A stretch of 32,295 nt of DNA, from NCBI GenBank assembly GCA_900313725.1, contig OMSK01000025.1, positions 1 through 32,295 on the forward strand, given 5' to 3'. The notes beneath the pieces are model-generated. The model was not told the origin of the DNA and did not search any database. It worked only from the letters and a program-made list of their open reading frames with translations. Source of the stretch: an uncultured Bacillota bacterium (GTDB taxonomy: Bacteria; Bacillota_I; Bacilli_A; RF39; UBA660). The first letter of the stretch is position 1. Every line of letters starts with the position of its first letter. Of the stretch, positions 13,510-32,295 are shown piece after piece. Made by a program: the position numbers and the translations under genes.

Positions 13510-13574
13510 AACAACACCCTTTTCTACTATTAACATTTTATAATAAATTAGAATAAAATGCAATAAGATAGAAA

Positions 13575-13787: not shown

Positions 13788-13875
13788 TGTTTTCACCACC
13801 TTTTACTATTATTCTAACCACGTATCAAATAATAATAATAGGTAATTTTTGTTAATTAAGCAATTTAATAATAAA

Positions 13876-13893
13876 AGACAGTATTAACTGTCT
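13876..13893 (-). terminator. Terminator of SASP 2
   Basis: A 7-bp stem (AGACAGT / ACTGTCT) with loop ATTA, followed by TTTATTATT on the minus strand, overlapping the stop codon. Confidence 0.65.
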
Positions 13894-15547: not shown

Positions 15548-15633
15548 TGGTACCGGCCAAGGGACTTGAACCCTCACATCCTTACGGACAACAGATTTTG
15601 AGTCTGTCGCGTCTACCATTCCGCCAGGCCGGC
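15548..15633 (-). tRNA. tRNA-Leu (anticodon CAA)
   Basis: The minus strand folds as a class II tRNA: acceptor GCCGGCC pairing with GGCCGGT, anticodon stem ACAGA/TCTGT around the loop CTCAAAA (anticodon CAA, reading UUG), a long variable arm (TGTCCGTAAGGATGTG), the TpsiC loop GGTTCAAGTCC and an encoded 3' CCA. Length 86 bases. G1 faces U72, a wobble pair. The gene lies just downstream of scpB. Confidence 0.95.
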
Positions 15634-17019: not shown

Positions 17020-17301
17020 TCAATTTTCCAATATCCATCTTTCATATCCTCCTACAACATTTGTTACATTAAATCCTCTTTTAATTAATATTTCACATGC
17101 TTTCATACTAGTTATTCCACTTCTACAATATATATAATACATTATATTTTTTCTTAGATATTTATCTGGTTCAATTATTAATTTTTCAAAAGGAATATTT
17201 ATAGCGTTAGGAATATGATTATTATTATAACTTTGATTACTTCTAATATCAATAATATTATTTTTATTTTGTAATTGCTTAACAGAAATACTTGGTATCA
17301 T
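17020..17301 (-). CDS. Stand-alone rhodanese-like domain protein
   Basis: Rhodanese domains carry sulfane sulfur on an active-site Cys. The 93-residue protein is one domain: IIDIRSNQSYNNNHIPNAINIP, then the active-site loop YYIYCRSGITS with Cys59, and a C-terminal VVGGYERW typical of the family. It is cytoplasmic with no signal peptide. The start is the ATG at 17301 after GGTGGTTG; the GTG at 17310 is part of that site. It could act as sulfur relay for ThiI encoded nearby, which lacks its own rhodanese domain, but that is inference from proximity. Confidence 0.88.
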   Translation of the reverse strand: MIPSISVKQLQNKNNIIDIRSNQSYNNNHIPNAINIPFEKLIIEPDKYLRKNIMYYIYCRSGITSMKACEILIKRGFNVTNVVGGYERWILEN

Positions 17302-17366
17302 ATCAACCACCCACTATATTATATGTAATAATTTTTTTATAATAAGTTAGATAGTTTAGAAAAGAA

Positions 17367-17385
17367 AAAACCTATAAAAGGTTTT
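17367..17385 (-). terminator. Terminator of the coupling-protein gene
   Basis: A 7-bp stem (AAAACCT / AGGTTTT) with a five-base loop overlaps the stop codon. T-rich tract on the minus strand. Confidence 0.7.
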
Positions 17386-19876
17386 ATTCATCTGAGAAGA
17401 AATCATCAAAGAATTGATCATCTGTTACATCATCGTAATCATCATAATCATCTTCGTCATCTACTGCACTATTTGAATCTACAACTATATCATCAGTAGT
17501 TTCTACTATATCATTTTCTGTATTTTGTTCAACAGTAGGAATATCAGATATAATTGGTTCTTCTTTTAATTCAGGTTGTACTAAATCTGGTTGCTTTTCT
17601 TCAACAATATTATTTACATCATCAATTATATCATCATTTAATTCTTTACTTTGATTATTAATAACTGGTGTTATAACTGGTTGAACAATTTTTGTTTCTT
17701 CTACTATTGGTTTTGTTTTTTCTATAGTTGATTCTATTTTTGATTTTTCTTCACTAATAATTGAAGCAGGTTTTTCCATAATTGTTTCACTAGTTTTATT
17801 AATATTTTGAATTGGTTTTAATTCAATTTTATTTGGTATTTCTTCTATTTTTGCTTCAACTGGTTTCTTTTCTAAGTTTACTACTACACCTGGAGTTTTA
17901 ATTGAGGTATCATCTTGAATATCCTTTTTATCAATAGTAACCTTACCAGATTTTTGTTTAGCAAGTTCTTCTTTTTCTTTTCTTTCTTCTTCTTCAAGTT
18001 CCGCAATTTTCGCATCAATTCTTTTAACTAAATCATCCATATTAAATCCTGGATTAGGTTTAGGTTCTCTTCTTCCAAACATACTTCCTGGATCAAATCC
18101 ACCTATTCCCATAGGAGGCATATCATTCTTAGAAGAGTTTCCATTTAACATATCATTTATTTTTTTCTCTCTTTGTGCTTCAACAAATGATTTTAAATCA
18201 AATAGTTTAACTTCTTGTTTTTGTCTTTCTGGATAATCAGCTTTTTCTTTTGACATACCCCATTCAATTTTATGATCATATTTTAATTTAGTTTTAAATG
18301 GGCGCATTCTTGATCTTAGAATTAAGGCTTCTTCTTCTTTTAGATTTTGTAAATCAGTTACTGTAACAAGTGGTCTTGAATCTGTTTTGTCATCTTTTTT
18401 AGATTTTACCTCACCACACATTTTACTTATCTCTTCTAGAGCAGCAAGTTCAGTACTTAACAAGTAAATTGTATTACTACAGTTACCTCTAATGGTTTCT
18501 GCTTTTTCTTTTCCATAAACATCATTTAATTGTGAAAAGTTTTGAATAATAAACGATAATCTAATATTTCTTGAACGAGCAGCTGAAACCATAGCATCAA
18601 CATCTGATAATGGTGGCATGTTTGCAAACTCATCCATTAAGAAATTTGTTCTATATTTTAATTTTCCGCCTGGATTTTCTTGAGCAACTCTAACTAATGT
18701 TTCATAACATTGTTTTAAGAAAATTGTAACAAGTGAATGATATGTTTTCTTTTCATCTTGTACAACAATAAATACAGCGGTTTTCTTTCTACCAATATCT
18801 TCCATATCAAAATCACTTCTTGATAACATTTCAGATAATGTATCACGTGATGAGAATAATTGTATTTTTTGATTAAATACTGATAGTATACTTCCTTTTG
18901 TTTCATTTGGAGCAGTTATAGTTGAATTAACTTTTATGCTTTCTGTTGAAGTTGGTGCTTTACCACTAAAATATTCTTTCATATAGTTAGTTCCACCAAG
19001 TCTTTGTTCTCCAACGCTTGCCATATAATTTATACTATTAATATTAACTTCTTCTTCTTTACCATCTTGAAATAATGCCCAAGCAAGACCAGCAAAGTAG
19101 TCAGCTGATGTATTACACCAGAATGGGTCTGCTTTACTACTTTCATCATATAGTATATTTTGTGCTAAATCTTCAAGTAATTCTATTGATTTATCAATAT
19201 TACCTTGTTGATATAATTTGTAAGGAACTGTAAAAGGATTCCAACAATTACCTTTTTCTGGATTACGAAAGTTAAGTATAATTATATTATATCCTCTTTT
19301 TTCTAGTTCCTTAGCAGTACCCTCATATAACTCACCTTTAGGGTCAGTTATAATCATTGATTCTCCTGCTTTAGCCATAACATTAATATAAGGGAATGAT
19401 AATCCTTGTGATTTACCTGATCCAGTAGAACCAATAATCATATTGTGATATGTATTTGTATCAACCCATACCTCTTTACCATTATTATATATAGGAATTC
19501 CACCGCTTTTTATATTATCATCTGTTGGTTTAATAACCATTATTCCATCAGCATGCTTCATTTCTTTATCTTTACACCATCTAGAATATCCTTTTTCCTC
19601 TTTTTTACCAACAGCTACACCTACACCTTTTTCTCTTTCAAAGAAATAAGATGAAACACTTGTAAACGCTATAATAATAACAACTAAATATAAAATAATA
19701 GCTAAAATAATATTTTCTGAACTAAATATCGGAATTGGATTTAAACCATGTACTGTTCCATCTTTTAGAATAGACATTGCATTTAATACTCCAATTGATA
19801 CTATATAAAAGCAAAAAATTGAAAATAATATAAACATTATAATATCTTTTGCTTCTGCTCTAAATTTAAGTTTCAT
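17384..19876 (-). CDS. virD4: VirD4/TraG-type type IV secretion coupling ATPase
   Basis: Coupling proteins are hexameric membrane ATPases that recruit substrate to a type IV secretion channel. Two membrane helices (about 11-34 and 56-78) are followed by Walker A GSTGSGKS (149-156), the family motif IITDPKGELYE (175-185), Walker B FLMDEFANMPPL (412-422) and the sensor-like QNFSQLNDVYG. From about residue 560 the sequence becomes a long low-complexity Lys/Glu/Pro/Ile tail ending in a very acidic stretch: 15 of the last 25 residues are Asp or Glu. The start at 19876 follows GGAGGT. The gene has its own promoter and is the last gene of the secretion island. No relaxase adjoins it. Confidence 0.93.
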   Translation of the reverse strand: MKLKFRAEAKDIIMFILFSIFCFYIVSIGVLNAMSILKDGTVHGLNPIPIFSSENIILAIILYLVVIIIAFTSVSSYFFEREKGVGVAVGKKEEKGYSRWCKDKEMKHADGIMVIKPTDDNIKSGGIPIYNNGKEVWVDTNTYHNMIIGSTGSGKSQGLSFPYINVMAKAGESMIITDPKGELYEGTAKELEKRGYNIIILNFRNPEKGNCWNPFTVPYKLYQQGNIDKSIELLEDLAQNILYDESSKADPFWCNTSADYFAGLAWALFQDGKEEEVNINSINYMASVGEQRLGGTNYMKEYFSGKAPTSTESIKVNSTITAPNETKGSILSVFNQKIQLFSSRDTLSEMLSRSDFDMEDIGRKKTAVFIVVQDEKKTYHSLVTIFLKQCYETLVRVAQENPGGKLKYRTNFLMDEFANMPPLSDVDAMVSAARSRNIRLSFIIQNFSQLNDVYGKEKAETIRGNCSNTIYLLSTELAALEEISKMCGEVKSKKDDKTDSRPLVTVTDLQNLKEEEALILRSRMRPFKTKLKYDHKIEWGMSKEKADYPERQKQEVKLFDLKSFVEAQREKKINDMLNGNSSKNDMPPMGIGGFDPGSMFGRREPKPNPGFNMDDLVKRIDAKIAELEEEERKEKEELAKQKSGKVTIDKKDIQDDTSIKTPGVVVNLEKKPVEAKIEEIPNKIELKPIQNINKTSETIMEKPASIISEEKSKIESTIEKTKPIVEETKIVQPVITPVINNQSKELNDDIIDDVNNIVEEKQPDLVQPELKEEPIISDIPTVEQNTENDIVETTDDIVVDSNSAVDDEDDYDDYDDVTDDQFFDDFFSDE

Positions 19877-19900
19877 AAGATACCTCCTAGGACTAAATAA

Positions 19901-19909
19901 ATTATACCA
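19901..19909 (-). promoter_or_regulatory. Extended -10 promoter of virD4
   Basis: Minus strand TGGTATAAT, an extended -10 element 24 bases before the ATG. The -35 region (TACTTA at 17 bases) is poor. It follows directly after the terminator of the preceding operon. Confidence 0.55.
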
Positions 19910-19944
19910 TAAAATTAATAAAATAAGTATATATAATGATAAAA

Positions 19945-19967
19945 AAAGATTACAATTTGTAATCTTT
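19945..19967 (-). terminator. Terminator of the T4SS operon
   Basis: A 10-bp stem (AAAGATTACA / TGTAATCTTT) with a three-base loop and seven T on the minus strand, just after the lipoprotein gene and before virD4. Confidence 0.8.
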
Positions 19968-19970
19968 ATA

Positions 19971-20696
19971 TTATATTTTATTTCTTTTAGCATTTAGTCC
20001 CATAGCATATATTATTACTACTACTACGGCACCTGCTAATCCTCCTAAAAAGATAAATAAATATATGAAGTTAATTGATGATTTTTTCTTCTTTTTTTCT
20101 TTTTTAGGTTCTTCATATTTGGTTTTATCTTTTTCTACTTTAAATTCAATAACTTTTTCCTCTGTATCTTTTGTAAGAATCCAAGTATAAGTATCATTAT
20201 CAACTTTATCTGCATTACTGCTTATAACTTTATTTTCAAATTTTATATTAATATTTATTTGATCAACAAATCCTTCATCAGCAATACCACTTAAATCATA
20301 GAATAAGCCAGATTGATTATACACCCCATTTGTTTTGAATGAATAATAATCATCTGTATCCTCAATATCAGCACCATTAAACATCATTCGAAAATATAAG
20401 AAACTAGTAAATTCACTAACACTTTTATTCTTACTTTTTAAAGTAACAACAACATTATCTGAATTATATTTTGCTGAAGAACTAAATTTATTTGTTTTCA
20501 ATATATCCTTATATGATTGTAGTGCACTTTCAGTTGATTCCTTTACTGTATATCCTGAATCTTCTATTGTTTTATTTGGAATAGTAAATTTAACATTTTC
20601 ATTTATTCTATTATCATACCTAAATGTTATGTTATAGTCTATTGTACAACCAGAAAAAAGTAAGAGAAAACAAATTGCAATAAATATTTTTTTCAT
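19971..20696 (-). CDS. Lipoprotein with C-terminal membrane anchor (LppM-like layout), T4SS operon
   Basis: The protein has an N-terminal lipobox (LLLFSGC, Cys17) and a C-terminal transmembrane helix (about 210-232) preceded by a Lys/Glu stretch (KYEEPKKEKKKKKSS) and followed by a short basic cytoplasmic end. The extracellular ~190 residues are therefore held at both ends. The opening IDYNITFRYDNRINENVKFT looks like the beta-rich start of LppM/DUF3153-type lipoproteins. The specific family is not certain. AAGGAGG precedes the ATG. It lies nine bases after the wall hydrolase gene and ends the operon, which suggests a surface or channel-assembly role in the secretion machine. Confidence 0.75.
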   Translation of the reverse strand: MKKIFIAICFLLLFSGCTIDYNITFRYDNRINENVKFTIPNKTIEDSGYTVKESTESALQSYKDILKTNKFSSSAKYNSDNVVVTLKSKNKSVSEFTSFLYFRMMFNGADIEDTDDYYSFKTNGVYNQSGLFYDLSGIADEGFVDQININIKFENKVISSNADKVDNDTYTWILTKDTEEKVIEFKVEKDKTKYEEPKKEKKKKKSSINFIYLFIFLGGLAGAVVVVIIYAMGLNAKRNKI

Positions 20697-20705
20697 ATTT
20701 CCTCC

Positions 20706-22952
20706 TTATTTTTTTGAATATGCGATTGCCATTACAAAGAAGTCAGAATCTGTATAATTTGCTTTTGATTGTTGTAAAATACTTGCTCTTTGGCTCTTAT
20801 ATATATTAAATATTTCATCTATTGTATGTAATCCAGTATTACTACTTCTTGACGGATCATTTAATTTTATTTTATTATCCTTCATACCTACAAGTGCTAC
20901 AAAATGATCTGGCACTAATAGTATTACTGATTTACCATTTTCTAAAGCATTTTTTATCTTAGTTTTCTTTTCTGAAATACTTAATGATGAATCTCTTGGG
21001 AATAATTGTTCTGCATTTAAATTATATTTACTTAATACCGAACTATTAACTAATGCTGCATCAGATACCGCTCCACCAGATGGATTATATGAATATTTAG
21101 ATACATAATCAACTACATTTGATGGATTAATGCTTTTATCATTGTTAATTCCAGAAGCTATCATTGCAAATGATGTATATCCACAACCAGAAGAAGAAAT
21201 AGTACTACTTGTTGAACATACTCCTTGTGTATAATCAGCACTATCACAAATCTTCTTATTTGCCCATCTCGAATCATATTGTGAATAATATGGGAAGGAT
21301 TCTATATTTGCAGCTTTTTTACATACTTTAGCATTATTAAATGGTGATGAATTTGTTATTATTTGCTTTAACACTGGTAATGGATCTATATATCCACTTG
21401 GTGTTTCCAAACCAAAATGTAAGTGAGGTCCAGTACTATTTCCGGTATTACCAGAATATCCTATTAATTGACCACCAGTTACTTTTTCACCAACTTTGGC
21501 TATAGGTTGTGACATATGATAGTATCTTGAGGTATAATCTACTGTTCCATCTCCATCTAAATCATGAGTGACTATAACAGCAAGTCCTCCAGTACCATAC
21601 CAACCAGAAAGAGTAACTGTTCCATCAAATATACTATATATTTCAGTTCCTGTTGATACAGGTATATCTACTCCTCTATGGAAACTTCCCCATCTTGGAC
21701 CAAATGGTGATGAAATAGGAATTTCTGTACCAGATATAGTTACAGGTAAAGATGCTTTACATGAACCACTTCCATTGCCTGAAGATGTACATGTTAATGT
21801 TGATACCTTCGCATTAGGATAAGTTTCTGCTAACATTTCTTGATATGTTTTACCTTGACGTGCTTGTGCATTCCAACGATCTTGTTCTATACTTGTATAA
21901 GTAGCATAATATATATTATTACTATCTGTAATAAGTACTTTATCTTTTATTTCTTCTACAGCTTGTCTTATATAACTTTCTTGGGCTAATGGTGGTTTTT
22001 TCCATGCTTTTGATGAATTATAACCTGAATGGACTGTTCTACCAGCTGTTCTTGAATCACTCCAACATCCTTTATCAGGATCACAATATACCTGATCGCT
22101 AGTACAGTTTCTTATATTAAGAATTTTTTGTCCGTTTTCTTCTGTTATTTTTAAACCTACAACATATCCCATTGCATCAGGTCTTCTTAATGCATAGCTT
22201 TTTGCAGCTATGGCTTCAGCTTTAATTCCTTCTGCAGGACCACCTTCATTTTCGGCATATGCTACACCTAAAACATATTTATCAAAATCAATAATATCCT
22301 CACCAGGTATTGGTGTATTACCACCACATTCTAATAATCTTACTTTTAAATTACTTATTTCTTCACCATTTAAAACATAGTTACATACACCTATTTGTTC
22401 GTTACCACTATCACCTGAGCCTGCATCATATGCAGCCCATAAAATTGGTATTAATAGAATCAATATTACTAATAATACTCCTGCCCAAAAGAAGGGAGCA
22501 GTTGCAGGGTTAAGTGCTAATGCTTTTATCACCGTTGTAAATCCTTTTGCCACTGCTTTACCTGCTTTTTTAGCAGTATCTTTAGTAGCATCCCCAGCTT
22601 TTTTTGTAACATTTTTTCCTGTTTTTTTTAATTTATCTAACGGATTTAACTTCGTATTCTGTTTTTCTACATTTTTATTATTTTCTAAATTATTTTCTTC
22701 ATTATTAGAAGAAGTTGAATTTCTTAATTCAACTTTTTTTCCTAATGTATTTGCGTTTCTTTGTTTTAATCTATTTGTGGCATTTTGATTATGATTAACA
22801 TTATTACGTTGTTGTCTAATTTGATCAGTCTTAGTTTTAATTTGATTTTTTAAAAATTCTTGCTTTAAATTTTTATTATTATTAAAGCTACTAGAATCAT
22901 AATTTTCTAATTCCACTAGTTCTTCTAATTTTTCATCAAATTCATTATTCAA
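20706..22952 (-). CDS. Triple cell-wall hydrolase: SpoIID-like + M23 peptidase + C39-like peptidase (T4SS VirB1 equivalent)
   Basis: A 748-residue membrane-anchored protein. A charged cytoplasmic N-terminus (1-150) with a Lys/Ala-rich amphipathic part leads to one helix (153-174). Outside are three enzyme domains. A SpoIID-like transglycosylase (about 222-380) contains YVLGVAYAENEG with candidate catalytic Glu234, then EAIAAKSYAL. An M23 zinc endopeptidase (about 412-525) has ligands H425 and D429 and the HLH pair at 510/512, with H479 also conserved. A C39-like papain-fold domain (about 553-745) has Cys590 (SSGCGYTSFAMI), His683 and Asp699. It presumably cuts a path through peptidoglycan for the secretion channel. 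GGTGGTGG precedes the start. It lies between VirB4 and the lipoprotein in the operon. Confidence 0.9.
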   Translation of the reverse strand: MNNEFDEKLEELVELENYDSSSFNNNKNLKQEFLKNQIKTKTDQIRQQRNNVNHNQNATNRLKQRNANTLGKKVELRNSTSSNNEENNLENNKNVEKQNTKLNPLDKLKKTGKNVTKKAGDATKDTAKKAGKAVAKGFTTVIKALALNPATAPFFWAGVLLVILILLIPILWAAYDAGSGDSGNEQIGVCNYVLNGEEISNLKVRLLECGGNTPIPGEDIIDFDKYVLGVAYAENEGGPAEGIKAEAIAAKSYALRRPDAMGYVVGLKITEENGQKILNIRNCTSDQVYCDPDKGCWSDSRTAGRTVHSGYNSSKAWKKPPLAQESYIRQAVEEIKDKVLITDSNNIYYATYTSIEQDRWNAQARQGKTYQEMLAETYPNAKVSTLTCTSSGNGSGSCKASLPVTISGTEIPISSPFGPRWGSFHRGVDIPVSTGTEIYSIFDGTVTLSGWYGTGGLAVIVTHDLDGDGTVDYTSRYYHMSQPIAKVGEKVTGGQLIGYSGNTGNSTGPHLHFGLETPSGYIDPLPVLKQIITNSSPFNNAKVCKKAANIESFPYYSQYDSRWANKKICDSADYTQGVCSTSSTISSSGCGYTSFAMIASGINNDKSINPSNVVDYVSKYSYNPSGGAVSDAALVNSSVLSKYNLNAEQLFPRDSSLSISEKKTKIKNALENGKSVILLVPDHFVALVGMKDNKIKLNDPSRSSNTGLHTIDEIFNIYKSQRASILQQSKANYTDSDFFVMAIAYSKK

Positions 22953-22972
22953 AATACCACCACCAGACTATT

Positions 22973-24760
22973 TTATAATCCTCCGCCACTTCCCATTGAA
23001 TCTAATTCTTGTTCAGTAGCAATTACTTCTATTTGCATTCTTCTACTACCACAGACAAATAATGCTTCACCTTGATTGTAGTGTTTAATGCTTTCTTTTT
23101 CATTATCATTTAAATCAATTAATTTTGATAAATCTTCAACAGCTTGTTTTTTAAGACCCATAACTAAGTAATAAGAAGCATTATCAAATATTGCCTTTCC
23201 TTGAGTTATAACATTTGGATCACTAAAATCACTAGGTTGTTGTGTAATTATTATTGTACCAGTATTATATTTTCTTGCACGTCTTTGAATTTGTGCTAAG
23301 AAATCTGCACCTAAAGTATTATTACCAGATAATAATACGTGTGCTTCATCAACTGCTAAAACAGTATCTATACGTCTATCTAATGTAAGTCCCCATGCAT
23401 ATTTTAATATATTAAAGAATAATGCATTTCTTATATTAGCATCAGCATTCATTAATTCTCTTATATTAAATACAATAAATTTACTACGTGGTTCAATTGT
23501 AGTATGACCATCAAAATAATATTTTAATTCTTTTGTAATTGGTCTTATTTTCATTTCTAAGATTTCCATAATATCTCTTTCATGAGTTTTTTCAGTCATA
23601 GATGCTAGTCTACCTCTAATAGTCGCATAAACATCTTTAAATGTTGGATAATCTCTTGAAGTAAATTTTGTAAAATCTGATTCAAAATTAATTCCAAATC
23701 TTCTATATGTTTCAGTTACTATTTCAGTAAATAGATTTAATACATCTTCAGTTATTGATGGATCATAGTATTTCATAAATGCTTTTATAGTTTGAAGAGT
23801 TCTTGTAAATACTGTATAACCAAGACCAGCTTGAGCTTCATCTTCATCAGCATCTAATACAACTTCAAGTGGATTTATCATTCCATAATCTCCACCTTTA
23901 CCTAAGTCAATAAAGTCTCCACCATATCTTCTAACCATACCTTCAGTTTCACCTTCAGGGTCAATTGCTACTAATTGACAACCATTTCTAATATGTGTTC
24001 TAAACATTATCTTTTCAGCAGTTGATTTACCTGAACCAGATGTACCTAGAATAATCATATTAGCGTTATTTCTATTATGTTCTTTTCTTATTTTATATAA
24101 GAATTGATTAAATAGAATTACACCACCTGAGAAATCAACACCTAATAATGTAGATAGTCCAGGATCTTTTATACTATCAAATATAAATGGATACATAGCT
24201 GCAATTGTAGGAGATGGTATTGGAATACCTATTCTACTTTCAATTTCTTGATCATCATATATTGGTAATATTGATTTAAATACATTTTCTTGTTCAAAAC
24301 GTAGAGGATATGCTCTCATTTGCATAGCTTCTAAGTAATTTCTTACTTGCATTTTTTTAGTATTTAATTCTTCTTCTGAATTAGCAGTTATCATAATATG
24401 CATTTGAAAATCAAATATTTTTGCTTGTGATGCTGCTAATTGAGAAATAAATACTTCTAATGATTCATAATCTTGTCTTATTTTTTCTTGATAAGTTAAA
24501 TCTTTTTCATTTTGATATCTTTCTTTTAAAGAAGCAACTTCTTTGTTTAACATTTTTCTAAGGATTGTAAATTCAACAGGAATATGTTTAATTACCACTT
24601 TAATACCAGACATACTTGTTAAATTAGATAAATACCCTGCTGTTACAATTCTAGGATAAGATATAACTGTTAAAATTGTTGCATACTTATCACTTATAAT
24701 AAAACTACTTGGTTTAAATTCAAGGCCTTTTGGAGCTATTTGTGATTTTATATTTGTCAT
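22973..24760 (-). CDS. virB4: VirB4-type type IV secretion ATPase
   Basis: VirB4 is the conserved energising ATPase at the cytoplasmic base of type IV secretion systems. Walker A ILGTSGSGKST spans residues 237-247; VAIDPEGE follows at about 264-271, and Walker B TVLAVDEAH lies around 466-474, with IITQQPSDF as the sensor region. Residues 1-210 are the domain preceding the ATPase (IAPKGLEF at the start). At 595 residues it is shorter than one-piece VirB4 proteins (~750-850); the missing N-terminal portion appears to be the separate 185-residue protein encoded immediately upstream. The two overlap by four bases (ATGA), with GGAGGTG upstream of this ATG. Confidence 0.94.
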   Translation of the reverse strand: MTNIKSQIAPKGLEFKPSSFIISDKYATILTVISYPRIVTAGYLSNLTSMSGIKVVIKHIPVEFTILRKMLNKEVASLKERYQNEKDLTYQEKIRQDYESLEVFISQLAASQAKIFDFQMHIMITANSEEELNTKKMQVRNYLEAMQMRAYPLRFEQENVFKSILPIYDDQEIESRIGIPIPSPTIAAMYPFIFDSIKDPGLSTLLGVDFSGGVILFNQFLYKIRKEHNRNNANMIILGTSGSGKSTAEKIMFRTHIRNGCQLVAIDPEGETEGMVRRYGGDFIDLGKGGDYGMINPLEVVLDADEDEAQAGLGYTVFTRTLQTIKAFMKYYDPSITEDVLNLFTEIVTETYRRFGINFESDFTKFTSRDYPTFKDVYATIRGRLASMTEKTHERDIMEILEMKIRPITKELKYYFDGHTTIEPRSKFIVFNIRELMNADANIRNALFFNILKYAWGLTLDRRIDTVLAVDEAHVLLSGNNTLGADFLAQIQRRARKYNTGTIIITQQPSDFSDPNVITQGKAIFDNASYYLVMGLKKQAVEDLSKLIDLNDNEKESIKHYNQGEALFVCGSRRMQIEVIATEQELDSMGSGGGL

Positions 24761-25314
24761 GCGAATACACCTCCAAAATTAGTAGTTTGTCCACCATTTA
24801 AGAAGTTATCAAGAATAACTCTTAAATCATCATTAGTTACTTGATGAGAGTTTAATCCTGCATTGGCAAACATAGTTATTAATTGTCTAAGTCTTTTATT
24901 TAAAACATCTACATCTTTATGTTTAAATAATATAAAGTACTCAGTATCAACAACATTATTATTAGTAAAAGTATTGGCTTTTTCAATATCTTCTATTATT
25001 AATTTTCTTACAACTGAATCATTTGTCTTAGCATATAATAATTGTAATTCAGATAAGAAAACATTTATATCTACAGGTCTATCTGCCGCAATAATCCAAA
25101 ATTCATAATCAATTACATTATAAACATTTTGAAGGTTTGCGATTATAGCATTTTGTGTAGAACTATCAGATATAAATATATTTCTTGGAACAATCTTTAA
25201 ACCAGTAACTTTTTCATTATTATCTAAAACAATCATTCCATTAGAAATATTTTTTATAGGAACATATTGTTCAGTATACTTACTTTTTACTTGTTTTTTC
25301 TTCTTTAAACTCAT
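24757..25314 (-). CDS. TraC-like N-terminal companion of VirB4
   Basis: This 185-residue soluble protein starts with a basic stretch, then YVPIKNISNGMIVLDNNEKV and LKIVPRNIFISDSS. That resembles the N-terminal domain of VirB4/TraC/TrsE proteins (PIKDI..GII....). It has no ATPase motif. Its end overlaps the VirB4 start by four bases, so the two are translationally coupled and probably assemble as one VirB4 unit of ~780 residues. The upstream end overlaps the VirB3/PrgI-like gene by 35 bases. Whether the split is ancestral to this VirB4 subtype or a local event cannot be decided by eye. Confidence 0.75.
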   Translation of the reverse strand: MSLKKKKQVKSKYTEQYVPIKNISNGMIVLDNNEKVTGLKIVPRNIFISDSSTQNAIIANLQNVYNVIDYEFWIIAADRPVDINVFLSELQLLYAKTNDSVVRKLIIEDIEKANTFTNNNVVDTEYFILFKHKDVDVLNKRLRQLITMFANAGLNSHQVTNDDLRVILDNFLNGGQTTNFGGVFA

Positions 25315-25624
25315 CTCTCACACACCAACCTTTCCAAATAAATCTTTGTCTTGTTGTAAAATAATCCCAAACCGACCTAATTAAGGTCATAACATTATGA
25401 TAGTTAGGAACAGGAAATACAAGAAATCCTGTTACTAACGCTGGAGCTACTATCATTACTATTCTTAACCAACTACCACCTGCTGGTAAAACAGTCATTA
25501 AGAATAATGTAATACCTACTCCTGTACCAAACATTATTAAATCAAACTTATTAAATAATCCAAAATATAGTATTGATTTTTTTGAATTGGCTGGAATTAA
25601 ATATGTTTTAGTATTTTCATCCAT
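25280..25624 (-). CDS. VirB3/PrgI-like type IV secretion membrane protein
   Basis: A 114-residue protein with two membrane helices (about 30-48 and 53-72) after a short polar N-terminus (YLIPANSKKSILYFGLFNKFD), and a basic cytoplasmic C-terminus (TTRQRFIWKGWCVRDEFKEE). This size, topology and position directly upstream of the VirB4 genes match the PrgI/TcpE/VirB3 group of Gram-positive systems, which docks VirB4 to the membrane. Sequence similarity is weak by eye; the assignment rests largely on layout. GGTGA precedes the ATG. Confidence 0.75.
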   Translation of the reverse strand: MDENTKTYLIPANSKKSILYFGLFNKFDLIMFGTGVGITLFLMTVLPAGGSWLRIVMIVAPALVTGFLVFPVPNYHNVMTLIRSVWDYFTTRQRFIWKGWCVRDEFKEEKTSKK

Positions 25625-25647
25625 TTAGCTTCACCCACTTTTTATTA

Positions 25648-28062
25648 TTATTTTTTTCTATTTTCAATATTTTGTCTAGCTTTGTCATAATCTTGTTGAG
25701 GAGCTGGATCAATTCGATAGAATCTTTCACGTTGAGCTTTTTCTTTCTTAATGGTATCAATATCTTTTTCGACTGCAGAAATTTCAGAACGTAATCCATC
25801 TTCATATGTTCTGTTTGAAGCATAAGTTTCAAGTGACTTGATAGATGATGCTTTACTATCTAGAGCACTTTGTACATCATTTAATTGTGTAACTTTATCA
25901 TTATATGCTTTTATTTTAGCATCTAATGTTTTCTTAAAGCTTTCTAAGCTCTTTTCAGCACCTTTTACATCTGAATCTGCACTTTCCATATTAGCTTTTG
26001 CTGTTGCCATTCTTGCGCTTTCAGTTTGTAAATGTTTATTTAAAGCATCTAAATCATTCCTAATTTTAGCATTTGCAGCTCTATCTTTTGGATTAGTAGC
26101 ATTTAATTCAGATTGTTTTTGGAAGATTTGTTCTTTAATACTATCTACATTTTTTTGACTTTGTTCATACATATCTTTTGCACTAACAAATGCTGCTCTT
26201 TTACCGTTAACAGTTGATAATGCAGAATTATATGAATTTTGTGCAGCATCCATGTCCGCTTTCAAAGTATTTACATCACCCTCAATTGTATTTTTTTGAG
26301 CGTTTAATGTACTTACTTCCCCATTTATTTGAACTTTTAAATCATCAACACTAAACTTAGTTATATCATAACCATTTGCCATTAAGTTTTGTGCTAACGC
26401 GGCAGTTCTATTTTCAGAAACATTTAAATCTGTTCTAAGACTATTTAATTGATCATATCCATCTTTTAATGAAGCTTTAGCCTCATCAACAGCTTCCTGA
26501 CCATGACCAACTTTGTTCATAAGCATTGTGGTTGGAGACATTCTTCTAAATTCATTACCTGTTAAATTTCGATATGCTTCATTCATACCTTTACCAACAG
26601 ACCATTTTTTATTTTGAAAACCAGCACTTGCTCCACTTAATGCCCCTAAAAATCTACCTAATTTTTTATTACCAACTTCAGAACCAGCTTTGGCACCTGA
26701 TATAGCACCACCTATACCACCAGTAACTAATCCTGTTGTTCTTCCAACTGCGTTAGCAATTGCTTCCCCACCTAAAGCATCCTTTTTTACTCTCTTAAAT
26801 GGATTAAGTTCAAGTCCACCTAATTTTAATCCAGGAATCATTTCTTCAATTAAGCTTGGCAATTTTTTAGCAAACATTAGTATACCAAATATTAAGAAAA
26901 TTTCCATCATCAATGATACATCTTGTACACCTTTACTATCAAGTCCATTACAAACAGCTGTTATAAGTAAAATTGCAAAGTTCAATACGATTATTCTTAT
27001 AAATAAACTTGCCCAAGTAGCACCCATTTTTTTTGCCCACTTGGTTAAATTATCAGAGCTTTTAGGATTAATAGAAGAAATAACAGGTATTGGAGCAATT
27101 AATTTTAAGAATAAAATTGTTAAACTACGAATTACTACATCAAAGCAAAAACTTATTGTTATTAAGATTGCAACAAATCCTGCAATTGTGGCAAATATAT
27201 AATTAAAATCAAACATATATGTATTGTTTCCATCTGTATTTACCATATTGTACATACCATGATACATAAAATCTTCGGCTGCATTTGGGCCTGGAACTAC
27301 AGATTTTAATGCTGTTTTATTATCAGCTCCGCTTATATACGTTAATTCGGTTCCCTCAATACTAGCGCCACAATAATTATATGACCTTAATTCAAGTTTA
27401 AACCCATAGGCTTTTAATTCTAAGCCACCATCATTAATAGCTTGTTGTTGACTAGCAAATTTAGCACTGTCATCAAGTTCCAATTCAGAATATGGTTGAA
27501 TAAATGGTCTTAAAAGTAATAAAGCTATATGGTCTCCTTTAGAAAAGGTATAAACATATGATCCTTCATTACATAATGAACTCATATGCACACCATAGCC
27601 ATAGACATCATCATCTATCTTTACTATTTCACCAGGTTCATTTGTCGCCACGAGTGACTCAATTACTCCTGAATCAAGTATATCTTTTTCAACCTCTTTA
27701 GCAACTTCAAAAACTGGGTTTATAAATACCAATATAATAATTGCTAAAAGAACCTTAACAATTATATTTTGAATTCCTTTTTTACCGTCAAAAGCTGATT
27801 CAGGATCAACTATAAAAGATAAAAAGGATAGTGTTAATCGAAATATCATAAATATGATCAAAATGCCAAATACTTTTTCAGCAATGGAATCAATAAAACC
27901 ATCCATTCCAAAATCAAAACGAGCAAGTTGATACATAGTATCAATTGACCAACTAAACAATTTATATAAAAACTTAATTATGCCTGCAAAAAAATCTCTG
28001 ATTGCGGCTTTGAAGCCTAATAAATCTGTTTCTTCTGCTTCTAACATATTAAATAAGCTCAT
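25648..28062 (-). CDS. VirB6/TrbL-like polytopic channel protein with long coiled-coil C-terminus
   Basis: VirB6-type proteins form the inner-membrane part of the secretion channel. The 804-residue protein has membrane segments at about 64-85, 100-118, 288-330, 350-372 and 383-400, with a large external loop (about 120-285) containing Cys164 and Cys231. A Gly/Ala-rich stretch (430-485) follows the last helix. From ~520 to ~790 there is a long helical, heptad-like cytoplasmic region rich in Ala, Lys, Asp and Gln. The last feature is unusual for VirB6 and could reach the ATPases. GAGGAGGT precedes the start. The gene sits between the exported VirB2-fusion protein and the VirB3-like gene. Confidence 0.8.
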   Translation of the reverse strand: MSLFNMLEAEETDLLGFKAAIRDFFAGIIKFLYKLFSWSIDTMYQLARFDFGMDGFIDSIAEKVFGILIIFMIFRLTLSFLSFIVDPESAFDGKKGIQNIIVKVLLAIIILVFINPVFEVAKEVEKDILDSGVIESLVATNEPGEIVKIDDDVYGYGVHMSSLCNEGSYVYTFSKGDHIALLLLRPFIQPYSELELDDSAKFASQQQAINDGGLELKAYGFKLELRSYNYCGASIEGTELTYISGADNKTALKSVVPGPNAAEDFMYHGMYNMVNTDGNNTYMFDFNYIFATIAGFVAILITISFCFDVVIRSLTILFLKLIAPIPVISSINPKSSDNLTKWAKKMGATWASLFIRIIVLNFAILLITAVCNGLDSKGVQDVSLMMEIFLIFGILMFAKKLPSLIEEMIPGLKLGGLELNPFKRVKKDALGGEAIANAVGRTTGLVTGGIGGAISGAKAGSEVGNKKLGRFLGALSGASAGFQNKKWSVGKGMNEAYRNLTGNEFRRMSPTTMLMNKVGHGQEAVDEAKASLKDGYDQLNSLRTDLNVSENRTAALAQNLMANGYDITKFSVDDLKVQINGEVSTLNAQKNTIEGDVNTLKADMDAAQNSYNSALSTVNGKRAAFVSAKDMYEQSQKNVDSIKEQIFQKQSELNATNPKDRAANAKIRNDLDALNKHLQTESARMATAKANMESADSDVKGAEKSLESFKKTLDAKIKAYNDKVTQLNDVQSALDSKASSIKSLETYASNRTYEDGLRSEISAVEKDIDTIKKEKAQRERFYRIDPAPQQDYDKARQNIENRKK

Positions 28063-28080
28063 ATTTTACCTCCTCGTTTT

Positions 28081-29208
28081 TCAATTCATTATTTTACAAA
28101 CAACCTCTGTCAAAGAAGTATCAATTATTCCTGCCATTCGTAATACAAGTTCTAAAATAACTGGAATTAGTACAAATAATATTCCTATTATAATTCTTTT
28201 TATAAATTTATTTTTTGCTTTTTCCATTTTATCGGAATCCCCAGAAAGAACAATTCCTAAAAAATCTATAACAGATAGAATTATTATTAGTGTAGGTACC
28301 AAAATTCTTAAAAGTGTATAAATTTTCTTTACCCATTCAAGTGTTTTTGTACCTTCTAATTTATCACAAGCATCGTTTATTTTTATTACTTGATTTTTAT
28401 CATGACTTACTACTGAAGTTTTTAATATACCTAATCGTCTTGATTCATCACCTCTAGCGTATAAACTAACAGCATATTGAGTAGAATTTCGATTAAGATA
28501 TAAAATTGTTGGACATGCATCAGGATTAACCAAATCTTTTTTTGAAAACTCTACACTTAGATTTCTATTTTCATAATCCCCAATTTTTTCAATTATTGAT
28601 AAATCATTTAAATTGATTGAAAAGTAATTATCTTTTGCTTTATTTTCCTTTGCATCATCATATGTTGCATATATACATTTTGTACCAGATTGCCCACTAC
28701 CACCACCTTGTTTTTCCTTATTGCAATCTGTACAAGATAATGCTAATGAACCACATCTTTCTAAACTATCATAGCAATATCTATTCATAAATTCATTTAC
28801 AGAAATATCAAGTGTATAATATTTATATGTAATTGAATTAGAAACATCATAACCACTATAATAATATAATTGAGTTGGGCAACTATCATTTAATTTAATA
28901 TCACTCAAATTTCCTATATATTTATAAGTATATCCTGCAAAATCATCAAGTCTTAATGCCGAATTTTCTACTGGAATACTTCTGTTATTTTTTTTATCAT
29001 AAATACTTAACTTTGTACTGCCAGAATCATTTGATAATTCAATTTGATAATTTTCTGTTTTATCTTCAAAGCCATCATTAAGAAAAGTTGAATTACCTAT
29101 TGAATTATATCTACATTGAATAGCCTCTACCTTTTCATTAATCATAAAAAAGCAGATAAATGCAAATACACTAATTATTAAAATTTTTATATTAAAAATT
29201 TTTTTCAT
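28081..29208 (-). CDS. Exported Cys-rich duplicated domain fused to a VirB2-like two-helix hairpin
   Basis: A signal peptide (about 1-29) exports a ~265-residue ectodomain that ends in two membrane helices (about 300-322 and 340-362). The ectodomain looks internally duplicated: two units each start with a Cys-x-Tyr-type strand (QCRYN, KCIYATY) and contain a D(S/A)CPT.LY motif (DSCPTQLYYYSGY, DACPTILYLNRNS), joined by a GGGSGQSG linker. The C-terminal hairpin (SGDSDKMEKAKNKFIKRIIIG) closely parallels the VirB2-like protein encoded just upstream. The start is the ATG at 29208 after GAGGTG. Likely a structural or surface-exposed component of the machine; the ectodomain is not recognised. Confidence 0.7.
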   Translation of the reverse strand: MKKIFNIKILIISVFAFICFFMINEKVEAIQCRYNSIGNSTFLNDGFEDKTENYQIELSNDSGSTKLSIYDKKNNRSIPVENSALRLDDFAGYTYKYIGNLSDIKLNDSCPTQLYYYSGYDVSNSITYKYYTLDISVNEFMNRYCYDSLERCGSLALSCTDCNKEKQGGGSGQSGTKCIYATYDDAKENKAKDNYFSINLNDLSIIEKIGDYENRNLSVEFSKKDLVNPDACPTILYLNRNSTQYAVSLYARGDESRRLGILKTSVVSHDKNQVIKINDACDKLEGTKTLEWVKKIYTLLRILVPTLIIILSVIDFLGIVLSGDSDKMEKAKNKFIKRIIIGILFVLIPVILELVLRMAGIIDTSLTEVVCKIMN

Positions 29209-29256
29209 ATTACACCTCATTTGTGAAAATATACCACATATATTATAACATAAAAA

Positions 29257-29287
29257 AAAACAATAGAAAAGTCTTTTCCATTGTTTT
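29257..29287 (-). terminator. Attenuator-like terminator after the VirB2-like pilin gene
   Basis: A ~14-bp stem with one mismatch (AAAACAAT.GAAAA / TTTT.ATTGTTTT), three-base loop, then a run of nine T on the minus strand, inside the operon. It should make the pilin transcript more abundant than the downstream genes. Confidence 0.65.
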
Positions 29288-29303
29288 AATATATTATTTT
29301 ATA

Positions 29304-29672
29304 TTATTTTGCTGGATCACATTTATCATTTATAAAACAATTAACACAAGAACTAACACTTGTTTTATTAATATTTGTTCCATCAGAATCTTGTGAAGCT
29401 AATCTTGAGAATACAAATTGAACTAAAGCAATTACAAAGAATACAACAACTGCATAGATAATTCTATGAATAAGTTTCTTTTGTGCTTCTTTCATTTCTT
29501 TTTCATCATTTGCCATAACAGCTTTTGATAAATCTAACATACCAAAAATAATTAAAATAATTGGAATAGCTATTTTTAAAATAGTTACAACCATTGAAAT
29601 AGTACCTGGTATAATATGATCTATCTCCATATTTCCACATTTTACAAGTTCTAATGTATTAACTAAATTCAT
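29304..29672 (-). CDS. VirB2-like type IV secretion pilin / two-helix membrane protein
   Basis: A 122-residue protein with two hydrophobic helices (about 23-45 and 67-88) separated by a charged loop (MANDEKEMKEAQKKLIHRI). This is the topology of VirB2/TrbC pilins and of the small hydrophobic proteins found in Gram-positive T4SS operons. There is no obvious cleavable signal peptide. The C-terminus has three Cys (SSCVNCFINDKC). The same hairpin is repeated at the end of the next protein. GAGGAGGG precedes the ATG, and the gene is first after a consensus promoter, fitting a highly expressed pilin. Confidence 0.75.
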   Translation of the reverse strand: MNLVNTLELVKCGNMEIDHIIPGTISMVVTILKIAIPIILIIFGMLDLSKAVMANDEKEMKEAQKKLIHRIIYAVVVFFVIALVQFVFSRLASQDSDGTNINKTSVSSCVNCFINDKCDPAK

Positions 29673-29704
29673 AATTAACCCTCCTCATCACGTCTAACAA
29701 TATA

Positions 29705-29733
29705 ATAATACTTTATTTTTAATAATTTGTCAA
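29705..29733 (-). promoter_or_regulatory. Sigma-A promoter of the T4SS operon
   Basis: Minus strand TTGACA (29728-29733), 17-base spacer, TATTAT (29705-29710), in the 92-base gap before the VirB2-like gene. No terminator is evident between this and the upstream Tad-like genes, so read-through is possible. Confidence 0.7.
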
Positions 29734-29764
29734 CATTTCTTATATTTTTTATATTTACTTTACA

Positions 29765-30736
29765 TTAGTTAACCTTCATAAATCCAAGTTTATGTAAAAA
29801 TTCCACTAATTCAGGATAATTATTAGCTCTATCATTAAGTGGTCCTATATTATAGAATATTTTAACTTTAGTCTCATATTCAAAATCAGATATATCTTTA
29901 TTATTTAATAAACTTTGATTTAATACAACTTTTTTACCTTGAATAGAAGTCAATAATCTAGGATTAATAACCATTAATCTATTAAGTTTTATTATTGAAG
30001 GTTCTATTAAGTATATAACATCATTACATAAACCAATAGCATTCTCACTATTATTAATATCTAATAAAATAATATTATTAGTTTTATTTTTATTTATAAC
30101 ATTTCCAATATTACTATTAGTAGCAGATATTAAACTTCTATCATCAAGAAATCTAAAATCAGATTTTTCTACCTCTATAGCTGCAACCTTATAATATTTT
30201 TCTAATTGTTTTTTAAGCATATATATTAATGTGGTTGAACCTGCTTGTTTTGTTATATTTTTAAATCCAATTACCTTACAGTCATCTGATTCAATGTATC
30301 TATCAACATAAACTGTATTAGATTGTGAATCATTTGTTTGATTAATAATCGGTTGTTCAATAACATGTAAATGTGCTACATCACGATAACTGTTTGGACT
30401 ATTATATAAGTACATTATTCCTTCTAAATTTGTAGTAAAATTATAAATACCAATTGAAATTAATTTAGACATAAATTCAGGTGATACTGTTTCAGATTCT
30501 TCATCAAGCACTAAAATGACTTTATTCATATCTAAAGCCAATGATAATTTTTGTATTGTCATTATATCAGTATAATTTTTAAGTGCTGTTATATCTAAAA
30601 TCATACGTTGAAAAAAGAAATTCTTAAAATTATTAATAATTTCTTCTACGTCAAATTCACCAGTCATTTCTTTTATTATTTCAATATTTAGATTTTCTAG
30701 CATCTGTGTTTTTTTGTTTGAAATAATTACATTCAC
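29765..30736 (-). CDS. TadZ/CpaE-like ATPase with degenerate P-loop
   Basis: TadZ/CpaE proteins are MinD-like ATPases with an N-terminal receiver-like domain that position Tad/Flp pilus machinery. The 323-residue protein fits this layout: an alpha/beta N-terminal half (about 1-115), a linker, then a C-terminal MinD-like domain from ~155. Its P-loop reads GFKNITKQAGSTTL where MinD/ParA have KGGVGKTT. The Thr pair is kept but the usual Gly-Lys before it is Gly-Ser. The earlier Lys (ITKQ) could serve as the deviant signature lysine. The start is the GTG at 30736 after AGGTGG. It lies between the pseudopilin genes and the T4SS operon. The family call rests on layout and context. Confidence 0.65.
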   Translation of the reverse strand: MNVIISNKKTQMLENLNIEIIKEMTGEFDVEEIINNFKNFFFQRMILDITALKNYTDIMTIQKLSLALDMNKVILVLDEESETVSPEFMSKLISIGIYNFTTNLEGIMYLYNSPNSYRDVAHLHVIEQPIINQTNDSQSNTVYVDRYIESDDCKVIGFKNITKQAGSTTLIYMLKKQLEKYYKVAAIEVEKSDFRFLDDRSLISATNSNIGNVINKNKTNNIILLDINNSENAIGLCNDVIYLIEPSIIKLNRLMVINPRLLTSIQGKKVVLNQSLLNNKDISDFEYETKVKIFYNIGPLNDRANNYPELVEFLHKLGFMKVN

Positions 30737-30751
30737 ACTGACCACCTTTTT

Positions 30752-31180
30752 CTAATTGCTTTTATTAAAATCATTAAAAGTATTTGTTTCCCCTCTTACT
30801 TCAAATTTAATAATATCACTTATTACAGGAAATTCAAATTTCATAAATGTAACAACCTTATAATAATTTTTACATTCATAAACACAGTAGTCGTAGCTAC
30901 TATTAATATTAATATATTTACATGTAGTAGGAATATTACTAACTCTATTACATTTATAATCATCTTTTCTAACGTTATATCCAATATCTTTCATATATGA
31001 ATCAACGCTTGCCTGTAAACTTGAATCCCATCCACCATATTCTTCTATTTCATTTACAATATAATTTTTTATTTTATATGATTTTGAATAGCTTATAGAT
31101 CCTACAAAAAATATCATTATAACAGCAATAATAGAAGTAATCATCATAGTTAAAAGGGCATTACCTGTAGCTTCTCTCAC
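30752..31180 (-). CDS. TadE/F-like pseudopilin 2
   Basis: A 142-residue protein with the short leader MREATG, a hydrophobic helix (ALLTMMITSIIAVIMIFFVG) and a ~110-residue exported domain with five Cys (YKCN, TTCK, YCVYEC and a preceding polar part). It has the same plan as the next upstream gene: helix, SYSKSYKIKNYIVNEIEEYGG, Cys-containing middle, then YYKVVTFMKFEFPVI. The start is a GTG four bases after AGGTGAT. Together with the Flp-like pilin and the TadZ-like gene this indicates minor pilins of a Tad-type system. The gene ends 15 bases before the TadZ-like start. Confidence 0.7.
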   Translation of the reverse strand: MREATGNALLTMMITSIIAVIMIFFVGSISYSKSYKIKNYIVNEIEEYGGWDSSLQASVDSYMKDIGYNVRKDDYKCNRVSNIPTTCKYININSSYDYCVYECKNYYKVVTFMKFEFPVISDIIKFEVRGETNTFNDFNKSN

Positions 31181-31191
31181 TTATATCACCT

Positions 31192-31596
31192 CTACTTGCT
31201 AAATTGATAAATTGGTTTAGTATATGTTTTTACTGGAATATTAAAAGTTTGATTAATAATTGGAATATTAAAATTCATATATGTTACTAATTTATATTTA
31301 ATCTTGTTATTACTTGTAGTTTCAGCATATACACAATAACTATAATTAGTGTCATTAAGATTACCTTGACTACACTTTTTTCCACTATTAACATATCCTA
31401 AACTAATCAATTTGTTAGATATTTCTTTTTTTGCAAGATTATTAAATCCTTCATATTTTTCAATACTATCTGAAATAGCATTATTTACTTTATAAGCTTT
31501 ATAATAATTTAAAGAGGCTACCAAAAAAGCAAAGGTAACCACTATAAATATAGCTATTATATTAATAGTAACTGAAAAACCTACTCCCTGCTTCAT
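31192..31596 (-). CDS. TadE/F-like pseudopilin 1
   Basis: A 134-residue paralogue of the following gene. Leader MKQGVG, helix FSVTINIIAIFIVVTFAFLV, then LNYYKAYKVNNAISDSIEKY, two Cys in the middle (KKCSQ, YCVYAE) and the shared ending pattern YKLVTYMNFNIPIIN. TadE/F-type pseudopilins initiate or tip Tad pili. AGGAGGT lies five bases before the ATG. The assignment rests on architecture and neighbours. Confidence 0.7.
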   Translation of the reverse strand: MKQGVGFSVTINIIAIFIVVTFAFLVASLNYYKAYKVNNAISDSIEKYEGFNNLAKKEISNKLISLGYVNSGKKCSQGNLNDTNYSYCVYAETTSNNKIKYKLVTYMNFNIPIINQTFNIPVKTYTKPIYQFSK

Positions 31597-31612
31597 AGTA
31601 ACCTCCTATATA

Positions 31613-31837
31613 TTATTTACATGATTCGTAGTTTACTGTACCTGTACAAGATCCACTTTCATCACAAGTAGCGTAACATGTTCCACCTTTCCATGATCCA
31701 CCACATGAAGTACATGCAGAACTATTTTTAGTGCTTCCCATCATGCTTCTAACAATAACAGTACCAACACCTAATACGATTGCGATTAATACTATTGTTA
31801 TAACTGTCATATTTGCTTCTCCAGCTGCTTCTTTCAT
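31613..31837 (-). CDS. Flp-like prepilin with Cys-rich C-terminus
   Basis: A 74-residue protein: leader MKEAAG, likely cut after Gly6, hydrophobic helix MTVITIVLIAIVLGVGTVIV, then a ~40-residue tail with six Cys (ACTSCGG, GGTCYATC, GSC, ESC) that could form three disulfides. Size and layout match Flp/TadE-group major pilins, although a Cys-rich tail is not standard for Flp. The start is the ATG at 31837 after GGGTGGTGAG; the longer reading would start upstream of the Shine-Dalgarno sequence. It is the first gene behind a near-perfect promoter, as expected for an abundant pilin. Confidence 0.75.
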   Translation of the reverse strand: MKEAAGEANMTVITIVLIAIVLGVGTVIVRSMMGSTKNSSACTSCGGSWKGGTCYATCDESGSCTGTVNYESCK

Positions 31838-31904
31838 TTTCTCACCACCCTTACTTATGAATAAAATCATAACTATCATCATATTTTTATATGATTACAT
31901 TTTT

Positions 31905-31933
31905 ATTATAACTCAAATATTTTTTTTTATCAA
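31905..31933 (-). promoter_or_regulatory. Sigma-A promoter of the Flp/Tad pilin operon
   Basis: Minus strand TTGATA (31928-31933), 17-base spacer starting with eight A, TATAAT (31905-31910), 68 bases before the pilin ATG. Confidence 0.75.
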
Positions 31934-31952
31934 TAGTATGTGTAAAGTAGTT

Positions 31953-32295
31953 TTACACGCTCATCATATTCATCATTGCAAACATTAAAAGTGCTAAGAT
32001 TCCACCACCTGTTGCAAATAACATGATCATTGTTTTCTTTTCCATTGCTTCCAAACGTGCTTTATATTTATCTTCACGCATTTTGTTTTGTAATGTAGAT
32101 ACGTTCTTTGAGAACATAACTAATTGTTCTTGTTTAGATTCTTGAGCACCTAAACTTAAACGATATAATAAACGCATCATTCTCATTGAATCTCTAACTG
32201 GATATTCCTTAGCAAAATCCATATAAGGATCAATACTAGAATCACCGGCTTCAATCTTTTCAATTAATTTTTTTAAACCTGGTTGAAATATCTCA
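31953..32295 (-). CDS. TadC-like type II secretion F-domain protein (5' end outside window)
   Basis: The frame is open to the right edge; 113 C-terminal codons are visible, and the ATG at 32222 is internal. The visible part includes FQPGLKKLIEKIEAGD, EYPVRDSMRMMRLLYRLSLGAQ, a long charged helix (NKMREDKYKARLEAMEKK) and a last membrane helix (IMLFATGGGILALLMFAMMN). This matches the C-terminal half of TadC/GspF-type inner-membrane platform proteins of Tad pili. A small inverted repeat (31940-31958, GTGTAAA/TTTACAC) follows the stop but lacks a T-tract. TadB and the TadA ATPase would be expected just beyond the window. Confidence 0.75.
   Translation of the reverse strand, partial: EIFQPGLKKLIEKIEAGDSSIDPYMDFAKEYPVRDSMRMMRLLYRLSLGAQESKQEQLVMFSKNVSTLQNKMREDKYKARLEAMEKKTMIMLFATGGGILALLMFAMMNMMSV

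Follow-up and report, generated by a model that had tools for sequence, protein, structure and literature searches.

The Tad-T4SS block of the window

The window analyzed here is a stretch of 32,295 nucleotides from an uncultured Bacillota bacterium of the RF39 lineage, family UBA660 (GCA_900313725.1, contig OMSK01000025.1). It represents contig 37 of a draft genome of 1.15 Mb in 105 contigs, with a completeness of 69%. Profile searches and translations of the open reading frames (ORFs) located a block of Tad-type pilus genes and type IV secretion system (T4SS) genes at positions 17384-32295, all co-oriented on the minus strand (Table 1). Every gene that an earlier, sequence-only reading had listed for this block was found. 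Of the monoderm (MPF_FATA-like) T4SS set, VirB4, VirD4, VirB6, VirB3 and a wall hydrolase were present together, with VirB3 and VirB6 assigned via weak matches and position. The locus was not described in the literature on RF39/UBA660 with T4SS or Tad, most subscription papers and all preprints being outside the search.

Table 1. Genes of the Tad-T4SS block and its conserved downstream neighbour
Feature	Position	Strand	Support
Rhodanese, conserved downstream neighbour	17020..17310	-	Pfam
VirD4 coupling protein, CD1115 family, acidic C-terminal tail	17384..19876	-	PF02534, E 7e-59; NCBIfam CD1115 above cut-off
Lipoprotein	19971..20696	-	Weak LppM-like match
Wall hydrolase, SpoIID + M23 + C39 domains	20706..22952	-	PF01551 (M23), SpoIID and C39 matches
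VirB4 ATPase, 595 aa, Walker A GTSGSGKS, DEAH	22973..24760	-	Mbov_0397 VirB4 model, E 3.5e-104
VirB4 N-terminal domain, separate 185-aa protein	24757..25314	-	Mbov_0397 VirB4 model NF045975, E 7.9e-16
VirB3/PrgI-like (DUF5592 position)	25280..25624	-	Position; weak match to pZB18 DUF5592, E 3e-4
VirB6-like polytopic protein, coiled-coil-like C-terminus	25648..28062	-	Weak TrbL/MMCAP2_0566 match
VirB2-like protein, signal peptide, variable beta-rich ectodomain, C-terminal T4SS_pilin domain	28081..29220	-	PF18895, E 8.7e-6, just below cut-off
VirB2-like pilin	29304..29672	-	PF18895, E 0.0014, below cut-off
TadZ, receiver-like N-domain and ParA/MinD-like domain	29765..30745	-	AlphaFold2 model
Pseudopilin B, prefix as in pseudopilin A	30752..31180	-	
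Pseudopilin A (TadE/F-like position), M[KR][EQ]xxG prefix, then one transmembrane helix	31192..31596	-	
Flp-like pilin, conserved start MKEAAGEANMTV	31613..31882	-	
TadC, C-terminal 113 residues, cut by contig end	31953..32295	-	90% identity to the complete TadC of G001

VirB4 was split across two adjacent ORFs, both of which matched the Mbov_0397 VirB4 model. In relatives, VirB2-like genes formed arrays of 1-6, and at least two were present between TadZ and VirB6 in 54 of 57 loci. The genes in these loci were assigned by an iterative profile search starting from VirB2-like proteins; homology is tentative as both window proteins scored below the Pfam cut-off. The AlphaFold2 model of the 379-aa VirB2-like protein was poor (predicted local distance difference test, pLDDT, 56) and informative only for the two-helix C-terminus; internal repeats in its ectodomain were limited to very short local matches. 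The wall hydrolase varied strongly between species in length and sequence.

The TadZ-like ORF had no Pfam match. Its AlphaFold2 model (pLDDT 87) matched 3fkq, the structure of TadZ from E. rectale, with an E-value of 1.8e-4 and a low overall TM-score of 0.32; 3fkq was not among the entries of the VIA-align list for this model, which was taken up by the ParA-like domain. The start of VirD4 is probably 19876 rather than 19993. A separate VirD4 promoter, as claimed in the sequence-only reading, is plausible given a hairpin with T-run and an extended -10 element (TGGTATAAT, 19909-19901) upstream of the gene, but such matches were no commoner than chance in this AT-rich sequence.

Continuation and gene order of the block in relatives

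The contig end at position 32295 falls inside tadC, and TadA and TadB are therefore missing from the window. In relatives with longer contigs, the block extends upstream into a CpaB-TadA-TadB-TadC run that is preceded by genes for a DUF5411 pilin-like protein and a large surface protein, with the TadA ATPase, TadB and TadC found at the place that is cut off here. Because relatives carry TadB, TadA and CpaB at the matching place, the missing Tad motor genes would be expected just past 32295. The ATPase of the relatives scored 4e-33 with VirB11 and 3e-29 with TadA, both below the cut-off; CpaB/RcpC (PF16976) was above the cut-off in G001. TadA was not found in the source genome, at its completeness of 69% and with the contig stopping within tadC. 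The sole good T2SSE match of that genome (C28) was rejected as TadA, as it is PilB-type and located beside type IV pilin-like genes.

Gene order was counted in 80 loci, which were the closest relatives by VirB4 and in which the near part of the family is over-represented. All were from metagenome-derived assemblies of uncultured Bacillota, variously labelled Bacilli, Bacillales, Tenericutes, Mollicutes, Mycoplasmatota, Erysipelotrichaceae, Firmicutes and, once, Clostridium sp.; Ca. Coprosoma was among them. TadZ was present upstream in 54 of the 56 loci with 8.5 kb of upstream flank, and VirD4 downstream in all 64 loci with 6.5 kb of downstream flank. A succession of VirD4, rhodanese, scpA and scpB had been pointed out before, and all three neighbours of VirD4 were confirmed by Pfam in the window. 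Only rhodanese proved to be a conserved neighbour (52/64), together with RmuC (45/64), whereas scpA/scpB were rejected as such (0/64).

Among the family genomes sampled, TadA and VirB4 were adjacent in 18 of 24 genera in which this could be determined. The Tad and T4SS blocks are thus not always adjacent, and where they lie apart both are kept.

Relaxases and integrases

Relaxases of four kinds were searched for. None was detected near the resident block or in its extension in relatives, in agreement with the proposal of a relaxase-less T4SS. PF03432 relaxase matches were confined to a minority of the family's genomes, where most lay next to second copies of VirB4/VirD4 (25-38% identity) and none in the resident block. 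MobA/MobL and Rep_trans gave no match in the 25 family genomes searched, and a MobP2 query matched just two loci in G007 and G029, both of the type found in integrative and conjugative elements (ICEs). ICE-type loci of G007, G012, G023 and G029 had a relaxase-family match in their cluster; two of these matches were below the Pfam cut-off but were also recovered with the MobP2 query. These loci provide an internal control for the ability of the search to detect relaxases. No integrase was seen among the identified genes of the window or in the continuation of the block in relatives, whose unassigned ORFs were outside the scan. Replication genes were absent from the identified genes of the window. 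A relaxase plus integrase just outside the window would speak for a mobile element; at this place, the longer contigs of relatives continue with Tad genes, and neither was seen.

Distribution and inheritance

A VirB4 orthologue was present in 248 of 291 family genomes (85%), in 180 of the 206 of good quality and in 142 of 150 genera, with an identity of 65-92% in most family members. In 23 genomes from other families of the class, the VirB4 match never exceeded 32%. TadA was found in 239 of 291 family genomes. Both proteins were present in 221 genomes and neither in 25, with 26 and 18 genomes carrying one only (odds ratio 11.8, p 3e-11); this table was counted by hand from the two presence lists, its totals agreeing with the tallies, and draft genomes, linkage and common descent inflate the association. 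In G027 and G033, the orthologues of TadA, VirB4 and VirD4 were all absent together.

Distances of VirB4 and VirD4 correlated with those of the housekeeping protein Ffh (Mantel r 0.74 and 0.76, respectively; both p 0.0005), and TadA distances correlated with VirB4 distances (r 0.69). The resident VirB4 proteins formed a single clade with a support of 100/100, and the second, ICE-type copies that some of these genomes carry fell outside it. The proposal of a resident chromosomal machine was supported by near-universal presence in the family, by distances that agree with those of a housekeeping gene and by conserved gene order; instead of a sporadic block at different sites, one with conserved order and neighbours was found. 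These data support the block as an inherited chromosomal gene set of the family.

Evolutionary rates

Ratios of nonsynonymous to synonymous substitutions (dN/dS) were calculated within the genus. They were 0.09-0.27 for VirB4, VirD4, TadA, TadB, TadC and TadZ, 0.27-0.32 for VirB3, 0.42-0.68 for the pseudopilins, 0.63-0.93 for VirB6 and 0.69-1.17 for the hydrolase; the values are rough as synonymous sites are far diverged, and some domains counted for VirB6 and the hydrolase align poorly or were exchanged. The Walker A and acidic motifs were retained. The motors are under purifying selection, and the surface parts diverge fast. Constant motors with changing exposed parts would fit a surface that tracks partners, phages or immunity.

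Comparison with known systems

The plasmids of the pLS20 type from B. subtilis (L173), E. faecium (pZB18, L174) and P. bifermentans (L175) likewise have a T4SS operon that includes CpaF/VirB11 and a TadC-like protein. The T4SS genes shared with the block are VirD4 (CD1115), VirB6 (pLS20_p028), VirB3 (DUF5592), a split VirB4 and a wall hydrolase. The profiles of TadA, TadC, VirB4 and VirD4 matched all three plasmids, that of VirB6 matched L173 and L175, and that of the VirB4 N-terminal part L173 only. The match of the TadC profile to the protein beside CpaF/VirB11 had E-values of 1.6e-12 (Bacillus), 1.3e-6 (Enterococcus) and 4.9e-11 (Paraclostridium). Both L174 and L175 operons begin with an adhesin-type surface protein, and the conjugation operon of pLS20 includes an adhesin gene (PMC8092201); virB11 and virD4 are present in pLS20 (PMC11730352). 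In contrast to the block, these plasmids have a MOBP/MobP2 relaxase, and their hydrolase is of the lytic transglycosylase/C40 type instead of SpoIID/M23/C39; CpaB, Flp-like pilin and TadZ were not recognised in the three plasmids.

A 198-kb plasmid of Priestia koreensis (L176) encodes an Ig-like surface protein, DUF5411, SAF/CpaB, CpaF, TadB, TadC and a pseudopilin-like protein in the order found in the family, with a VirD4-like gene nearby. This plasmid was typed MOBP; in the stretch searched, the VirB4/VirB6 profiles had no match and TadZ was not found. Since these plasmids also combine Tad-like with T4SS genes, the combination is not confined to the family; what is new is the relaxase-free, vertically kept and enlarged form.

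The closest model to the VirB4 of the block was that of the mycoplasma ICE T4SS (Mbov_0397/Mbov_0395 families), and the MMCAP2_0566-type VirB6 matched too. The mycoplasma VirB4 model is one long protein, whereas that of the block is split. The mycoplasma ICE T4SS is not known to include Tad genes. Unlike the resident block, the mycoplasma ICE is mobile via a DDE transposase (PMC6030558). The T4SS of the block would be of the same stock as those of pLS20-type plasmids and mycoplasma ICEs.

In Patescibacteria, chromosomal T4SSs are mostly relaxase-free and have variable VirB2-like arrays (PMC12102498), and a 2025 review limits VirB2 among Gram-positive T4SSs to this group (PMC12857230). Likenesses to the block are a widespread occurrence in a reduced-genome lineage, highly variable VirB2-like arrays and cells that also have type IV pili. 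The coupling protein is mostly distant from virB4 in Patescibacteria but near virB4 in the block, and Tad is not mentioned in PMC12102498. The Tad/Flp pili of Gram-positive bacteria (PMC3244431) likewise comprise TadA, TadB, TadC, CpaB, TadZ and Flp-like and TadE-like proteins; the block differs in the absence of TadV from the locus, in pilins without E+5/Y+6 and in a layout joined to a T4SS. On this comparison, the block reads as a domesticated, relaxase-free, enlarged version of the pLS20-type layout and as a counterpart, within Bacillota, of the Patescibacteria T4SS.

Related arrangements were also observed outside these systems. In G041, a genome of another family of the class, one run (L073:1415-13862) encodes a thioester-domain-like surface protein, two pilin-like proteins, TadA, a TadB-like protein, TadC, VirB6, a VirB3-like protein and VirB4; an ArdC-like gene was read downstream, and the run resembles a mobile Tad-T4SS element. 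Two loci of G037 (L087:397-13253 and L088) carry a thioester/SpaA surface protein, TadA, two membrane proteins, VirB6, VirB4 and an M23-type hydrolase, with a weak relaxase match and VirD4 further along. In a further locus of G037 (L090:447-8449), a Tad cluster with prepilin peptidase adjoins WXG100-like and EsaA-like 1046-aa proteins, read as type VII secretion-like.

Other features of the window

Two genes for alpha/beta-type small acid-soluble proteins (SASPs; 13602-13799 and 13892-14092) and, from reading of translations, GerA-like genes (1051-2964) were observed. Their presence suggests sporulation in the source organism despite its small genome (about 1.2 Mb); the genomes of the family are about 0.5-1.8 Mb in size, and none of its members is known to be in culture. 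A 700-aa protein (11461-13563) begins like a type IV prepilin (NKGFVISTLMYALLIVF) and continues with a DUF6273 match and an extended C-terminal region; it is a candidate for a large minor pilin or an adhesin. Outside the Tad block, at 8999-9457, a 152-aa protein is encoded that starts like a classical type IV pilin (NKKGFTLIEIIATILVITVL). The tRNA-Leu (caa) gene at 15548-15633 adjoins scpB and is a possible integration site; an integrase was not seen nearby.

Proposed function and alternatives

The block is most likely a contact-dependent translocation machine. TadA with TadB and TadC would build a Flp-type fibre or pseudopilus, which would be aligned by CpaB and placed by TadZ, with the large surface protein probably forming its tip. 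The fibre would grip a neighbouring cell and the SpoIID/M23/C39 protein would open the wall; VirB2-like pilins together with VirB6, VirB3 and VirB4 would constitute the channel into which VirD4 would feed the substrate. From linkage and co-occurrence, we infer that pilus and T4SS may work together. On balance, we favour a monoderm conjugation-type T4SS that was chromosomally fixed in the family ancestor, with the relaxase lost or never carried in, and that has been maintained as a single machine together with an almost complete Tad apparatus. This suggests that a plasmid-transfer apparatus became a permanent tool for cell-to-cell contact.

Several observations weigh against this interpretation. 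The pilin motifs are non-canonical: the start of the Flp-like pilin (MKEAAGEANMTV) is without Glu+5/Tyr+6 and would have Thr at +5 and Val at +6 if cleaved after Gly. A TadV prepilin peptidase was not found in the locus; each family genome has one full-length PilD-type A24 peptidase on another contig, in several genomes beside a pilB-type gene. A VirB8/TcpC-like protein was not recognised by profile in the block, and neither a substrate nor an effector family nor an origin of transfer was identified for it. TadA distances did not correlate significantly with Ffh distances (r 0.35, p 0.11, 11 genomes), and the Tad and T4SS blocks are apart in 6 of the 24 determinable genera, both being retained.

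The separate sites in these six genera, and the distance of about 620 kb in the single-contig genome G244, would also fit two independent machines that share a transcription unit by chance. We regard this as unlikely, since the two gene sets co-occur across genera, the Tad genes of some split cases keep VirB2-like pilins (L077, L079) or VirB2-like pilins and VirD4 (L074), and pLS20-type plasmids already link CpaF and a TadC-like protein to a T4SS operon. Far more improbable is a stranded ICE, formerly mobile, that lost relaxase and integrase and is now moved by a helper or decaying. Homology with ICE and plasmid T4SSs and the ICE-type loci co-residing in some genomes agree with such an origin, but decay would predict sporadic and broken loci. 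The present data, with a block in 85% of the family, identities that track housekeeping distance, motors under purifying selection and conserved order and neighbours, largely refute it.

As to the use of the machine, protein delivery into neighbouring cells is the likeliest, though by itself it falls somewhat short of probable; it was favoured over DNA because VirD4 is retained and relaxases are missing. DNA exchange is the second likeliest and has a limited chance of being correct: Tad fibres would draw cells together and the T4SS would move chromosomal DNA, as in Ups/Ced of Sulfolobales or in mycoplasma-ICE-linked chromosomal transfer. The VirB4 of the block is nearest to the mycoplasma ICE model, and these ICEs are tied to unconventional chromosomal transfer (PMC6030558); in archaea, a type IV pilus (Ups) is paired with a conjugation-type importer (Ced) (PMC9905601, PMC11868833). 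Against DNA exchange, the locus is without a relaxase or other strand-processing gene, and the genomes have a separate competence-like pil locus (PilB and prepilin peptidase) that could serve DNA uptake. VirD4 would not be expected to be necessary for import, which also counts against this alternative. Attachment only is the least likely use and improbable. A farther-reaching reading is held with considerable doubt, namely that Tad fibre and T4SS channel are one organelle, with TadA in the role of VirB11, for attachment to and macromolecule exchange with other gut cells throughout this reduced-genome lineage, and a second, independent case of Patescibacteria-type T4SS dependence.

Resident T4SSs in monoderm bacteria have seldom been described, and the best known are those of Patescibacteria. 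In Saccharibacteria, the T4SS has reportedly been shown to be necessary for growth on the host bacterium. Tad-like proteins beside VirB11 in Gram-positive plasmids, currently annotated as hypothetical, merit study. The block suggests a route by which a plasmid transfer operon can turn into a lasting part of the cell. With a relaxase-free T4SS retained in most members, alongside VirB2-like arrays and Tad genes, this large family of uncultured gut Bacilli with small genomes offers another lineage, besides Patescibacteria, for studying what resident T4SSs carry.

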